Part shown: positions 32,403 through 37,148 of the stretch, piece by piece
Numbering within the stretch: position 1 is the stretch's first letter
Layout: the number at the start of each line of letters is the position of its first letter
Source of the DNA: Pseudomonadaceae bacterium
GTDB taxonomy: Bacteria; Pseudomonadota; Gammaproteobacteria; Pseudomonadales; Azotimanducaceae
DNA: 64,000 nucleotides
Assembly: GCA_024743175.1 (NCBI GenBank)
Contig: JANSXA010000008.1
Location: 124,001 to 188,000, forward strand
Direction of reading: 5' to 3'
Translations under genes and position numbers: made by a program
The notes under the pieces: generated by a model
Database searches by the model: none
What the model saw: only the letters and a program-made list of their open reading frames with translations
Told to the model about the DNA's origin: nothing

Positions 32403-33023
32403 GTGTTAGAAATAATTCAAGCCGGTGGCTGGCTGATGGTGCCGATATTGTTGTGCAGCGTTGTTGCCGCCGCGATCAGCGTAGAACGATTGTGGACGCT
32501 GCAGCGTAAACGCATCCTGCCTAAGAATCTGCTGGCACAAACCTGGAATTCGCTTAAACAGGACGAGTTTGATCAGCAGAAAACCCGTGAACTGCGTGCC
32601 GGTTCGCCCCTGGGGCATGTTTTTGCGTCCGGTATCAGTAACGCCAAGCGCGGGCGCGAGATCATGAAAGAAGCCATGGAAGAAGCCACAAACCAGGTGA
32701 ATCAGGATCTCGAGCGGTATCTCACGGCCCTCGGCATTATCGCCAGTATTGCGCCGCTATTAGGGTTGCTGGGTACGGTGGTGGGCATGATCGATGTTTT
32801 TGATAACCTCATGCGTGAAGGTTCCGGTAATGCCAATCTGCTCGCCGGTGGCATTTCCACCGCGCTGATCACCACAGCTTCGGGGTTGTCAGTCGCTATC
32901 CCAGCCCTCATGTTCCACCGCTTTTTCCTTCGACGGGTAGACGAGCTGGTTGTCGAAGTTGAACATGAAAGCAGCAAACTGGCGGATATGGTTCACGGTC
33001 ATCACGTGGAACCGGTTGCTTAA
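32403..33023 (+). CDS. exbB: MotA/TolQ/ExbB proton channel family protein
   Basis: This 206-residue protein has three membrane helices: an N-terminal one (GGWLMVPILLCSVVAAAISVE) and a C-terminal pair containing ALGIIASIAPLLGLLGTVVGM and TALITTASGLSVAIPALMF. These are the ExbB/TolQ signatures. With ExbD it forms a proton channel that powers an envelope machine, usually TonB. The start is GTG at 32403. ExbD follows by three bases; there is no tonB here. The pair precedes lipid A genes, an arrangement I recall from Pseudomonas. Confidence 0.88.
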   Translation: MLEIIQAGGWLMVPILLCSVVAAAISVERLWTLQRKRILPKNLLAQTWNSLKQDEFDQQKTRELRAGSPLGHVFASGISNAKRGREIMKEAMEEATNQVNQDLERYLTALGIIASIAPLLGLLGTVVGMIDVFDNLMREGSGNANLLAGGISTALITTASGLSVAIPALMFHRFFLRRVDELVVEVEHESSKLADMVHGHHVEPVA

Positions 33024-33026
33024 ACA

Positions 33027-33455
33027 GTGGCAAAGCGCAGGCGCGGCCGCCACGAGGCCAATGTTGAGTTAACGCCCTTAATTGATGTGGTTTTCCTGCT
33101 GTTGATTTTTTTTATGGTTTCAACCACTTTTATTCGCGAAACCCAGTTGCAGATAAATCTGCCGGAATCCAGCGGTGAGCTGCAGGAAGTAGAGCCTGGT
33201 ACCATAGAGATTGTGATTGACCGAGGCGGCGATTACGCGGTGAATGATCGACTTCTGGTGAACTCGGAGAAAACCACGCTCGTTCGAGCCTTGCGGGAAG
33301 TTATGGATCCAGAAGCGTCGTCAACTCTGGTGGTGATTACAGCGGATGCGTCTGCGCAACATCAATCGGTTGTGCGGGCGATGGATGCTGCTGGTACCGT
33401 AGGCCTGACCCGCGTTAGCATTACAACGCAGCAACCCGAAGAGACTTCGGAATAA
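33027..33455 (+). CDS. exbD: Biopolymer transport protein ExbD
   Basis: This 142-residue protein has one transmembrane helix with the essential aspartate (ELTPLIDVVFLLLIFFMV, Asp25) and a periplasmic TolR/ExbD-type domain. It starts with GTG at 33027 right after exbB. It provides the proton-path residue of the ExbB-ExbD motor. The next start, of the MsbA-LpxK fusion, is 16 bases away, so all three are probably one transcript. Confidence 0.9.
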   Translation: MAKRRRGRHEANVELTPLIDVVFLLLIFFMVSTTFIRETQLQINLPESSGELQEVEPGTIEIVIDRGGDYAVNDRLLVNSEKTTLVRALREVMDPEASSTLVVITADASAQHQSVVRAMDAAGTVGLTRVSITTQQPEETSE

Positions 33456-33471: not shown

Positions 33472-36384
33472 GTGGCGATGCCGCCCGAGAGGAATACCAA
33501 CATCGAAAAGTCGTCAGGCGACTGGTCTATCTATAAACGTCTTCTCAGGTACGTGGCTCCCCACTGGATGCTGCTGCTTGTCTCGTTTCTGGGATTTTTA
33601 GGCGCTGCCGGCTCGGAGGCCTATTTTGCCTATCTCTTTGGTCAGCTCATTGATTCATGGGAAGAAGCGGTTGTCATAGCAGCGGCCAGTATCCCGGTGC
33701 TGATGTTCATGACTGCGTTGGGTCGCGCCACCGGTTCAATTATTGGTGAATCCCTCATGGCGCGAGTGTCGTTTCATGTGGTGTACACCCTGCGACAGGA
33801 ACTGTTCAACCAGTTATTGAAACTGCCCAGCAGCTTTTTCGATAAAAACTCTCAAGGCCATACTGTTTCGCGCCTGACGTTCACTGTGGCGCAGCTGCGT
33901 GATACCGGTACCGATGCGCTGCGCGCAATTATTCAGGATGGACTGAAAGTAATCGTTTATCTGAGCGCAATGGTGTGGATGAACTGGCAGATGACCCTTC
34001 TGTTCATAGGCACGCTACCTGTGCTGGCCTTTGTTGTCGTATTCGCCAGTAATCGATTTCGCAGAATAAGCCGCCGCATACAGGGATCCATGGGAGATGT
34101 TACCCACGTGGTGTCTGAGACTACCGCGGGTTACCGGGTGGTGCGCACGTTTGGTGGTCAGGACTACGAAACCAGAAGATTTGAGAAGTCTAATCGCGTC
34201 AACCGCCAACAGAATTTGAAGATGGCGGTCACTAAAGTGTTCAGTGCGCAGATGAACGAAACCATTATCGCGTTGGCGATCTGCGTTCTTATCTTTCTGT
34301 TGTATGACAGCTCCGGGAGTATGACCAGCGGTGAGGCGGTGACGTTTCTGACCTGGGCGGGCCTGTTAGGATCGCCGATCAAAAAACTCTCTGAAGTAAA
34401 TGCCAAACTTCAGCGCGGGCTGGCGGCGGCTGAAGATGTCTTTGCGCAACTGGATTCTGCCGTCGAGCGGGATGAAGGTAGCGAAGAGATAGGGCGCGCA
34501 ACAGGTTCGCTGGTGTTTGAAGATGTGTCATTTACTTACGGTGGTGACACGCCAGTATTGCGCCATGTCAACCTCTCAATTGAACCAGGCCAGACGATTG
34601 CCCTGGTAGGGCGGTCGGGTAGTGGTAAGACCACCATCGCTAGTCTGATCCCGCGATTCTACGAATTGGAGCAAGGCCGGATTCTGCTCGATGGAAAAGA
34701 TATAAGGTCCTATTCATTACCGGCTCTGCGGCGTCAGATTGCCCTCGTTTCTCAACAGGTCACTTTGTTTAACGATACTCTGCGCAACAATATCGCATAC
34801 GGTGACCTGCAGGATTGCAGTGATGAAGCGATTCAGCAGGCCGTTTCTCGAGCTTATGCCAATGATTTTATCACCGCTCTGCCGGATGGATTCGATACCA
34901 TTGTTGGCGACGATGGCGTACTGCTGTCCGGCGGTCAGCGGCAGCGTGTAGCCATTGCCAGGGCGCTGCTTAAAGACGCACCACTGCTGATTCTTGATGA
35001 AGCCACCTCGGCTCTGGATAACGAATCTGAACGGTATATACAGGCTGCGCTTGACGCGGTGATGGAAGGGCGCACAACCATTGTCATCGCACACCGTTTA
35101 TCTACCGTGGAATCTGCAGACAGTATTGTTGTACTTGATGAAGGGCAGATTGTAGAAGTTGGAACGCATGATGAGCTGCTCGCCGCTGATGGGCTTTATG
35201 CCGAGTTGCACAGTGCTCAGTTCCAGGACGAAGCTCCGGCAAAAAAGAAGAAGCGAGCGGTGCGAAACAAAGATCAGGCGGTAGTGCGGACAAGCCTGCC
35301 CAGCGGTGAATATTTTGAAAGATCAGCTCTGGGTTTATCTCAGGCCTGGTATGACGGCGCCTGGTGGCTTCACCTGCTGCGTCCATTGTCCGGAGTGTAT
35401 AACTGGGGGCGAAAACGCCAGCTCAAACCTTATCAAACAGGTAAAAGAGCGCCTGCCCGTACCAGCCTGCCGGTTATTGTAGTCGGTAACATTACGGTTG
35501 GTGGGACCGGTAAAACTCCGATGGTGAGCTGGCTTGTTGAAGAGCTGCGAACGTTAGGTTTCGCTCCAGGTGTTGTGTTGCGGGGCTACGGTGGACGCTT
35601 GAGTAAAACGGGTACTCTCGTCCCCACCGGTGCAGATCCCGAACGTTACAGCGATGAGGCGGTGCAACTGCGTGATCGCCTCGGTTGTCCCGTGGCTATA
35701 TCTGCCAACCGCCTGAAAGGGCTGCGGCTGCTGGAAACACAGGTGTGCGATATCGCCATTTCTGACGATGGTTTACAACACTATGCTATGGCCAGAGATA
35801 TTGAGATTGCCATTATTGACGGCGCGCGTGGCGTTGGTAACGGCAGGTTGTTACCCGCCGGACCCTTGCGGGAGCCTGTTGAACGACTACAGGAAGTAGA
35901 CTGGGTGATCGCCAATGGTGAGTCCAGTGGCCTGGTTGAGGCTGAATCAGTGATGCGCATGCGTGCTGATGGCTTCATTAATCTGGCCAGTGGTGAGCAG
36001 CTGACCTGCGCGGCATTCTGCGGACGTTTCAGCCAGGTGCACGCCGTGTGCGGAATTGGCAATCCGCGACGCTTTTTTGAATCCCTGCATGAGTTGGGGA
36101 TCAGTACGATAAAACATACTTACAGCGATCATTACGACTTCTCTGGTCCTGAAGTGCGTTTTGGCGATGGCATGCAGGTTGTCTGCACGGAGAAAGATGC
36201 CGCTAAGCTTAAGCATCTGGAAGATGATTTCAGTCACGTCTGGTACCTGCGCGTTTCTGTGCAATTGGAAACCAACGCCCGGGACATATTGCAGGGTTTA
36301 CTGGTGGAACGTGCCATTGTGCCTCGGCCGGCGGATCCTGCAGACGAAATCGATGCTGGTCAGAATCTGGAAGTCACCCCGTGA
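33472..36384 (+). CDS. MsbA-LpxK fusion: lipid A flippase joined to lipid A 4'-kinase
   Basis: One uninterrupted frame encodes 970 residues. Residues 1-585 are a complete MsbA-type ABC exporter: six-helix domain, then Walker A GRSGSGKTT (381-389), LSGGQRQRVAIARALL and Walker B LLILDEATSALD. Residues 586-617 are a basic linker (AKKKKRAVRNK). Residues 618-950 are a full-length LpxK: P-loop GNITVGGTGKTP (672-683), GYGGRLSKTGTLVP, ISDDGLQHYAMARD and YSDHYDFSG. LpxK phosphorylates the lipid A disaccharide on the inner face; MsbA flips lipid A across the membrane. An in-frame GTG at codon 605 could start a separate LpxK internally. The start is GTG at 33472 or ATG at 33478. kdsB overlaps the stop. 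Confidence 0.92.
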   Translation: MAMPPERNTNIEKSSGDWSIYKRLLRYVAPHWMLLLVSFLGFLGAAGSEAYFAYLFGQLIDSWEEAVVIAAASIPVLMFMTALGRATGSIIGESLMARVSFHVVYTLRQELFNQLLKLPSSFFDKNSQGHTVSRLTFTVAQLRDTGTDALRAIIQDGLKVIVYLSAMVWMNWQMTLLFIGTLPVLAFVVVFASNRFRRISRRIQGSMGDVTHVVSETTAGYRVVRTFGGQDYETRRFEKSNRVNRQQNLKMAVTKVFSAQMNETIIALAICVLIFLLYDSSGSMTSGEAVTFLTWAGLLGSPIKKLSEVNAKLQRGLAAAEDVFAQLDSAVERDEGSEEIGRATGSLVFEDVSFTYGGDTPVLRHVNLSIEPGQTIALVGRSGSGKTTIASLIPRFYELEQGRILLDGKDIRSYSLPALRRQIALVSQQVTLFNDTLRNNIAYGDLQDCSDEAIQQAVSRAYANDFITALPDGFDTIVGDDGVLLSGGQRQRVAIARALLKDAPLLILDEATSALDNESERYIQAALDAVMEGRTTIVIAHRLSTVESADSIVVLDEGQIVEVGTHDELLAADGLYAELHSAQFQDEAPAKKKKRAVRNKDQAVVRTSLPSGEYFERSALGLSQAWYDGAWWLHLLRPLSGVYNWGRKRQLKPYQTGKRAPARTSLPVIVVGNITVGGTGKTPMVSWLVEELRTLGFAPGVVLRGYGGRLSKTGTLVPTGADPERYSDEAVQLRDRLGCPVAISANRLKGLRLLETQVCDIAISDDGLQHYAMARDIEIAIIDGARGVGNGRLLPAGPLREPVERLQEVDWVIANGESSGLVEAESVMRMRADGFINLASGEQLTCAAFCGRFSQVHAVCGIGNPRRFFESLHELGISTIKHTYSDHYDFSGPEVRFGDGMQVVCTEKDAAKLKHLEDDFSHVWYLRVSVQLETNARDILQGLLVERAIVPRPADPADEIDAGQNLEVTP

Positions 36385-37148
36385 AGGTGCATGTTGTCGT
36401 ACCGGCACGCTTGGCCTCAACACGTTTGCCTGGCAAACCTCTGGCACTGATCCAGGGTATTCCGATGATCGTGCGCGTGATGATGGCGGTCCAGGATGCG
36501 GGTGTAGATACGGTTACCGCGGCAGTTGATGACCACAGTGTTTTATCTGCGGTTGAAGCAGCAGGGTTTGCGGCGATGCTGACCTCAGAGGATCATCCGT
36601 CAGGGTCTGATCGGGTCATGGAGGTGGTAAGCCGCTCAGGCTGGCAGGACACAGATGTTGTCATTAATGTGCAGGGCGATGAGCCTTTGCTGCCGGCGTC
36701 TCTGATCTCTCAACTGGCTGAACTCATGCGAGCGGATTCTGCAATGGAAATGGCAACGGTCTCTGAACCGATTGTGAGTGTTGCAGATTTCCTGAATCCC
36801 AACATTGTTAAGGTTGTAACCACTTCTCAAGGGGACGCGCTGTATTTTTCCCGTGCGCCCATTCCTCTGCCGCGTGATCTGATTCTCAACGATGCCCTGA
36901 CGGACACTCAGATTGATAGCTTCAAACCACAGCGGCACGTAGGTCTGTACGCCTTTCGTGTAGCGGCTCTGAGGAAATTTGTATCACTGCGCGATGCGCA
37001 CCTGGAAGGCATTGAATCGCTTGAGCAGCTTCGCTGGCTGGAAGCGGGCGGGCGCATCCGGGTTCTATCCAGTCCGGTGCCGGTACCCGGCGGTGTCGAT
37101 ACACCAGAGGATCTGGCTCGTGTTGAGCAGATCCTGCTGGCGCAATAG
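36381..37148 (+). CDS. kdsB: 3-deoxy-manno-octulosonate cytidylyltransferase KdsB
   Basis: This 255-residue CMP-Kdo synthetase has the N-terminal VVPARLASTRLPGKPLALI nucleotide loop, VINVQGDEPLLPASLI, and YFSRAPIPLPRD, with RHVGLYAFR near the end. It activates Kdo for transfer to lipid A. The start is GTG at 36381, overlapping the fusion gene stop (GTGA), so lipid A kinase, flippase and Kdo activation are co-translated. The small Trm112/YcaR-like gene often found between lpxK and kdsB is absent. Confidence 0.94.
   Translation: MKVHVVVPARLASTRLPGKPLALIQGIPMIVRVMMAVQDAGVDTVTAAVDDHSVLSAVEAAGFAAMLTSEDHPSGSDRVMEVVSRSGWQDTDVVINVQGDEPLLPASLISQLAELMRADSAMEMATVSEPIVSVADFLNPNIVKVVTTSQGDALYFSRAPIPLPRDLILNDALTDTQIDSFKPQRHVGLYAFRVAALRKFVSLRDAHLEGIESLEQLRWLEAGGRIRVLSSPVPVPGGVDTPEDLARVEQILLAQ

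Follow-up and report, generated by a model that had tools for sequence, protein, structure and literature searches.

On the forward strand of the window, that is, the whole 64,000-nucleotide stretch of DNA analysed here, a single open frame (33472–36384) runs from GTG 33472 to TGA 36384 and comprises 970 codons plus the stop, with no internal stop codon. This msbA-lpxK fusion gene may truly start at ATG 33478 rather than at GTG 33472. Its MsbA part (residues 1–586, 33472–35229), delimited by Pfam, NCBIfam and alignment, is followed by a linker of 39 residues (587–625, 35230–35346) that stops just short of the W-Y of LpxK, and then by the LpxK part (residues 626–970, 35347–36381), delimited by Pfam and by alignment with A. 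aeolicus LpxK. An ExbB/TolQ-like gene (32403–33023) and an ExbD/TolR-like gene (33027–33455), whose best NCBIfam models score below their cut-offs, lie upstream on the same strand, and kdsB (36381–37148, forward strand), identified by NCBIfam, lies downstream. The first-pass annotation had placed ExbB/ExbD and KdsB in these positions and had read complete MsbA and LpxK in one frame; the neighbours are as described, in the looser terms given here, and the two complete halves are borne out by the open frame, Pfam, NCBIfam and the sequence motifs. Since the fusion gene and kdsB overlap by four bases (GTGA, 36381–36384), their translation may be coupled.

The hmmscan search against Pfam found, in order, ABC_membrane (residues 36–301), ABC_tran (363–513) and LpxK (634–941, E = 2.7e-90). 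The MsbA equivalog TIGR02203 of NCBIfam matches over its full profile (1–572 of 572) with 697.8 bits against a cut-off of 602, while the stricter E. coli-type MsbA model NF008381 gives 576 bits, below its cut-off of 867. The LpxK part scores 212 bits with the lpxK equivalog TIGR00682 (cut-off 92) and 303 bits with PF02606 (cut-off 27). The best solved relatives are the MsbA entry 9bd6 and A. aeolicus LpxK (4ehw, 4ehx). In the MsbA part, Walker A (380–388), the signature (485–492), the Walker B region (505–516) and the H-loop His541 are intact. The LpxK part contains the P-loop (677–683), Asp728/Glu729, Asp765/Asp766, His770 and His887; using the residues listed as important for LpxK in an excerpt of PMC6286764, Lys51, Thr52, Asp99, Glu100, Asp138, Asp139 and His261 of the A. 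aeolicus enzyme correspond to Lys681, Thr682, Asp728, Glu729, Asp765, Asp766 and His887 of the window protein. These catalytic residues, including His770, are kept in 39–41 of 41 aligned fused proteins, except residue 682, which is Thr in 33 and Ser in 8 of them. The MsbA part is a predicted lipid A-core flippase and the LpxK part a predicted lipid A 4'-kinase.

The linker, which had been called Lys-rich, owes this character to the window species. Over 99 distinct junctions, the median net charge is 0 and the length varies from 22 to 51 residues with a median of 36. This spread, together with the varied sequence, indicates that linker length and sequence drift while the frame stays open. Nei-Gojobori estimates from 10 close pairs, of which 8 were finite for each part and some were near saturation, gave dN/dS of about 0.02–0.12 for MsbA, 0.06–0.14 for LpxK and 0.15–0.53 for the linker. 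Both halves are under purifying selection, which is much weaker on the linker.

The fusion gene is contained whole in its own 4.72 Mb genome (98% complete), where LpxK has one match, leaving no second, free LpxK. Six further ABC exporters in this genome score 367–413 bits with the MsbA model against the cut-off of 602, counting their matched segments only, which are N-terminally cut.

A search for other single MsbA-LpxK proteins found them across the window's family, in SAR86 and in other gammaproteobacterial families. Within the same genus, among the matches listed, the match runs from MsbA into LpxK in 32 of 37 genomes, and the remaining five (G007, G012, G027, G029, G033) have no such match or are cut by a contig end. 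The match of one of the 32, G003, includes a TAA at its far end; the junction itself reads as fused. The same-genus junctions read comprise 30 fused and one unresolved, with neither a stop nor another frame in any. In a family sample of 120 genomes, 107 of which have LpxK, hand counting placed LpxK in a frame of at least 939 codons in 84 genomes (50 read, all 50 fused) and in a shorter frame in 23 (7 fused, 9 separate, 7 unresolved). A stop or another frame in close relatives, to which the first-pass annotation had pointed as counter-evidence, therefore occurs in 9 of the 107 family genomes and at none of the same-genus junctions read. The family loci fetched come from 93 genomes, 81 of them with the fusion, 9 with separate genes and 3 unresolved, and a fused member is present in 29 of the 31 genera covered; this set is not random, since its same-genus loci were top-ranking matches and every short frame taken for separate was fetched, and the 120-genome sample is the less selected figure. 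The separate genes belong to genera g217 and g213 and to four of the six genomes read in g24, where G141 and G397 are fused and G451, G436, G419 and G466 are separate. The repeated occurrence of separate genes within the family shows that the fusion is dispensable. In G417 (L116), the MsbA part lies in two frames (396 and 588 codons) with the ATPase-LpxK junction still fused; the split appears to be a frameshift or assembly error. The fusion gene of the window is not a missed stop.

The window's family is probably HTCC2089 (the K189A or KI89A clade), since the single K189A-clade record, K189A clade bacterium (L160), which is fused, nests among the family rows in both trees described below. NCBI places HTCC2089 in the K189A clade, and an excerpt of PMC12629253 equates KI89A with HTCC2089. 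From at least 590 candidate stretches, 80 named loci were kept, with the window's own records possibly left out, and 11 of the 80 are fused (L152, L153, L154, L156–L160, L162, L172, L189). Three of these (L158, L159, L162) carry the name SAR86, and three further fused genomes (L232–L234) group with SAR86; all six SAR86-type sequences read are thus fused, and all six were found through their similarity to fused proteins. The Pseudomonas, Halomonas, Methylobacter and Alcanivorax loci of the named set are not fused. In a class sample of 369 genomes, among the matches listed, which were the best by E-value, at least 11 genomes, the window's included, have one stop-free match across both halves, and at least 31 further rows span both halves with at least one stop. 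In the small order f54, three of four genomes are fused. The carriers of the fusion form a large group of probably marine bacteria. The rest of the window's order, its own family aside, yielded 135 genomes with LpxK, a few of them cut by contig ends, and no real fusion among them. A fusion was suspected from the length of the LpxK frame in G138, the sole long LpxK frame outside the family in the order sample, and in G320, and was ruled out since MsbA lies in another frame. G201 and G270 also have long frames, without a second Pfam domain, and were not counted as fusions.

Eleven genomes of 90–100% completeness, eight from the window's family (G369, G399, G421, G438, G372, G402, G383, G393) and three from f9 (G044, G149, G176), gave no match to LpxK, LpxC or LpxB and none to KdtA over the cut-off, G393 having one hit below it. 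LptD is kept in ten of them (not in G383). All eleven have one to three LpxL-family acyltransferases, which form close pairs in eight, with a fatty acid hydroxylase between them in G044. LpxK and LpxB are both present in G087, which belongs to the genus of G044. From their gene content, these eleven look like gammaproteobacteria without lipid A, in which the Lpt machine may carry another lipid.

The gene order around the fusion is also found around separate msbA and lpxK genes. Of 265 LpxK loci, 109 carry the fusion; in 46 an upstream MsbA shares the frame of LpxK but is separated from it by one or more stops, in 50 it lies in another frame, and in 60 no upstream MsbA was found. Some genomes are counted more than once in the 205 loci with MsbA just upstream, and the class-sample search favoured the same-frame pairs. 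In testable fused genomes of the family, the gene immediately upstream is exbD in 43 of 50, and the one immediately downstream is kdsB in 74 of 77. Outside the family, relatives with separate genes commonly show this order too: among same-frame genomes, kdsB lies downstream in 34 of 40 and exbD upstream in 27 of 35, and among other-frame genomes in 36 of 41 and 17 of 26, respectively. Since fused and separate relatives have this order in common, the gene cluster that harbours the fusion is widespread. The likely and simplest route to the fusion would be stop loss, since msbA and lpxK are often neighbours that already share a frame and are kept apart only by stop codons.

From the 205 loci, 197 were long enough for a tree, 179 remained after removal of identical LpxK, and 161 after 28 same-genus rows were cut to 10. 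Both this 161-row tree and a hand-picked 78-row tree need nine changes of fused or separate state. The fused state is found in the window's family, with SAR86 and G517 close to it, in f54, f157 (G535) and f243, and in f152 together with f252. The nine changes may be read as, for example, five gains and four splits, the splits being g217, g213, the four g24 genomes and the f5 pair L106/L175. Since the root was not inferred, the division into gains and losses is our own reading, and since, in addition, both trees share one alignment and contain many weak deep forks, the number of gains is an estimate. The fusion has apparently been gained several times.

We consider it likely that the gene encodes one bifunctional inner-membrane protein, in which stop loss would have joined a flippase to a tethered, co-localised kinase at a ratio of 1:1. 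According to excerpts of PMC6286764, MsbA is a dimer with cytoplasmic ATPase domains, and LpxK is a membrane-associated kinase that requires its N-terminal amphipathic helix for activity. In the proposed arrangement, the N-terminal 586 residues would act as the lipid A-core flippase MsbA, and a membrane-surface LpxK would hang from the end of each cytoplasmic ATPase domain on the probably flexible linker, whose 39 residues could be enough for the kinase to touch the membrane next to MsbA. As MsbA functions as a homodimer, there would be two kinases per exporter. The kinase acting on the lipid A disaccharide and the exporter removing the finished product would then be supplied in fixed proportion at one membrane site. 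In E. coli, msbA and lpxK are co-transcribed and LpxK was calculated to be about twice as abundant as MsbA (excerpt of PMC4412817); fusion would set the ratio at 1:1. Since KdtA and late acyltransferases act between LpxK and MsbA, we favour stoichiometry and co-localisation, rather than direct hand-over, as the benefit of the fusion.

Close behind this benefit comes a near-neutral operon fusion, in which the stop was lost by chance, the fused protein performs as the two proteins do, and splits arise equally easily. This explanation contests only the benefit, since the one-chain protein is common to both readings, and we regard it as quite possible, though short of probable. Neighbouring genes that share a frame and are parted only by stop codons are common (the 46 loci, which the search favoured), separate genes reappear inside the fused family, and the linker is little constrained in length (22–51 residues) and sequence (dN/dS 0.15–0.53), all of which speaks for chance joining. 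On the other hand, drift between equivalent states fits poorly with retention of the fusion in 29 of 31 family genera read, with the six of six fused SAR86-type sequences, even though these were found by similarity to fused proteins, and with several further apparent gains. At the opposite end, selection could have produced the fusion convergently as a means of tying lipid A phosphorylation by LpxK to the export capacity of MsbA, perhaps with movement of the ATPase domain gating the kinase, so that one protein would set the LPS flux in HTCC2089-like and SAR86 bacteria; we consider this stronger form unlikely.

The first-pass annotation had proposed that finished lipid A is channelled from LpxK to MsbA. 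Physical linkage of the two would suit such a transfer, and E. coli transporting lipid IVA can be viable (excerpt of PMC6286764), so the LpxK product might be passed directly into MsbA and a reduced lipid A exported. However, LpxK yields lipid IVA, and the steps of KdtA/WaaA and the late acyltransferases come before that of MsbA (excerpts of PMC4412817 and PMC6286764), and MsbA is less active on intermediates without core or secondary acyl chains (excerpt of PMC6286764). The intervening enzymes are encoded: the window genome has KdtA and two Lip_A_acyltrans proteins in addition to the adjacent kdsB, and among 12 fused genomes checked, KdtA is found in 11 (not in G660, 58% complete) and an acyltransferase-family protein in 11 (not in G535). 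Since KdtA and the late acyltransferases act in between, direct hand-over is doubtful, and we give the channelling of a reduced lipid A only a slim chance. LpxC was likewise found in 11 of the 12 genomes (not in G660); it has two matches in the window genome (G000:C1:115329-116144 and G000:C7:431357-432172) and also two in G006.

An equally slim chance attaches to the production of both fused and free LpxK, through internal initiation or through cutting, to which a disordered linker could be exposed. Internal initiation had been suggested from an in-frame GTG at codon 605 (35284–35286, forward strand) behind an AGGCGG-like site. Both elements are present, but AGGCGG (35276–35281) ends two bases upstream of the GTG. 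Such a gap between ribosome-site motif and start is closer than usual. The start is also not conserved: the linkers of the same-genus loci L009, L010, L016 and L027 contain no in-frame ATG, GTG or TTG. Starts behind a ribosome-site-like motif are not enriched in frame, being found at 16 of 99 fused loci in frame against 21 in frame +1 and 2 in frame +2, whereas the identical motif precedes 38 of 87 distinct separate lpxK genes (Fisher p = 4.5e-5, for windows that differ in length and loci that are related). At synonymous sites, the linker diverges less than either domain in 5 of 10 pairs, which a hidden start signal could explain, but more than either in 3 and to an intermediate degree in 2, over only 25–42 codons. 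Finally, although many of the relatives are metagenome-assembled, an assembly or sequencing artefact concealing a stop has a negligible probability, as the open linker is common to 30 same-genus genomes and 57 family-sample genomes (50 with long and 7 with shorter frames) and is also found in records of other families.

The single protein favoured here can be set against known systems. As in the E. coli ycaI-msbA-lpxK-ycaQ operon (excerpt of PMC10328246), lpxK follows directly after a complete MsbA, and in many separate-gene relatives with MsbA beside lpxK, exbD precedes and kdsB follows as at the window. A known MsbA of the TIGR02203 type ends at its own stop, whereas the window MsbA runs into LpxK without one. 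A. aeolicus LpxK (TIGR00682, PF02606; 4ehw, 4ehx and others) has the P-loop, the Walker B Asp pair and the catalytic Asp-His in common with the window protein, but known LpxK is a free membrane-surface enzyme, whereas that of the window is the C-terminal domain of an exporter. In G297, from another family of the phylum (L102:1508-3955), the KdtA (WaaA) N-terminal domain and LpxK lie in one 816-codon frame. There, LpxK is likewise fused at its N terminus to a protein of the lipid A pathway, but the partner is the next pathway enzyme and not the exporter.

Our search of the literature on LpxK/MsbA fusions, including SAR86 lpxK, found no description of an MsbA-LpxK fusion. None is described in the available parts of PMC10328246, which covers the E. 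coli operon and knock-downs, PMC4412817, PMC4421995, which gives the operon by name only, or PMC6461280, which contains a separate gene list and unrelated fusion proteins; such proteins may already be visible in database annotation. MsbA and LpxK are essential in E. coli (excerpt of PMC10328246), and LpxK has been proposed as a drug target (excerpt of PMC4412817). That the two occur naturally as one chain, apparently the result of several gains and retained across most of one family, suggests that their relative amounts and their placement may be important. The split and fused pairs within genus g24 would provide a ready-made test of physical coupling between LPS synthesis and export.
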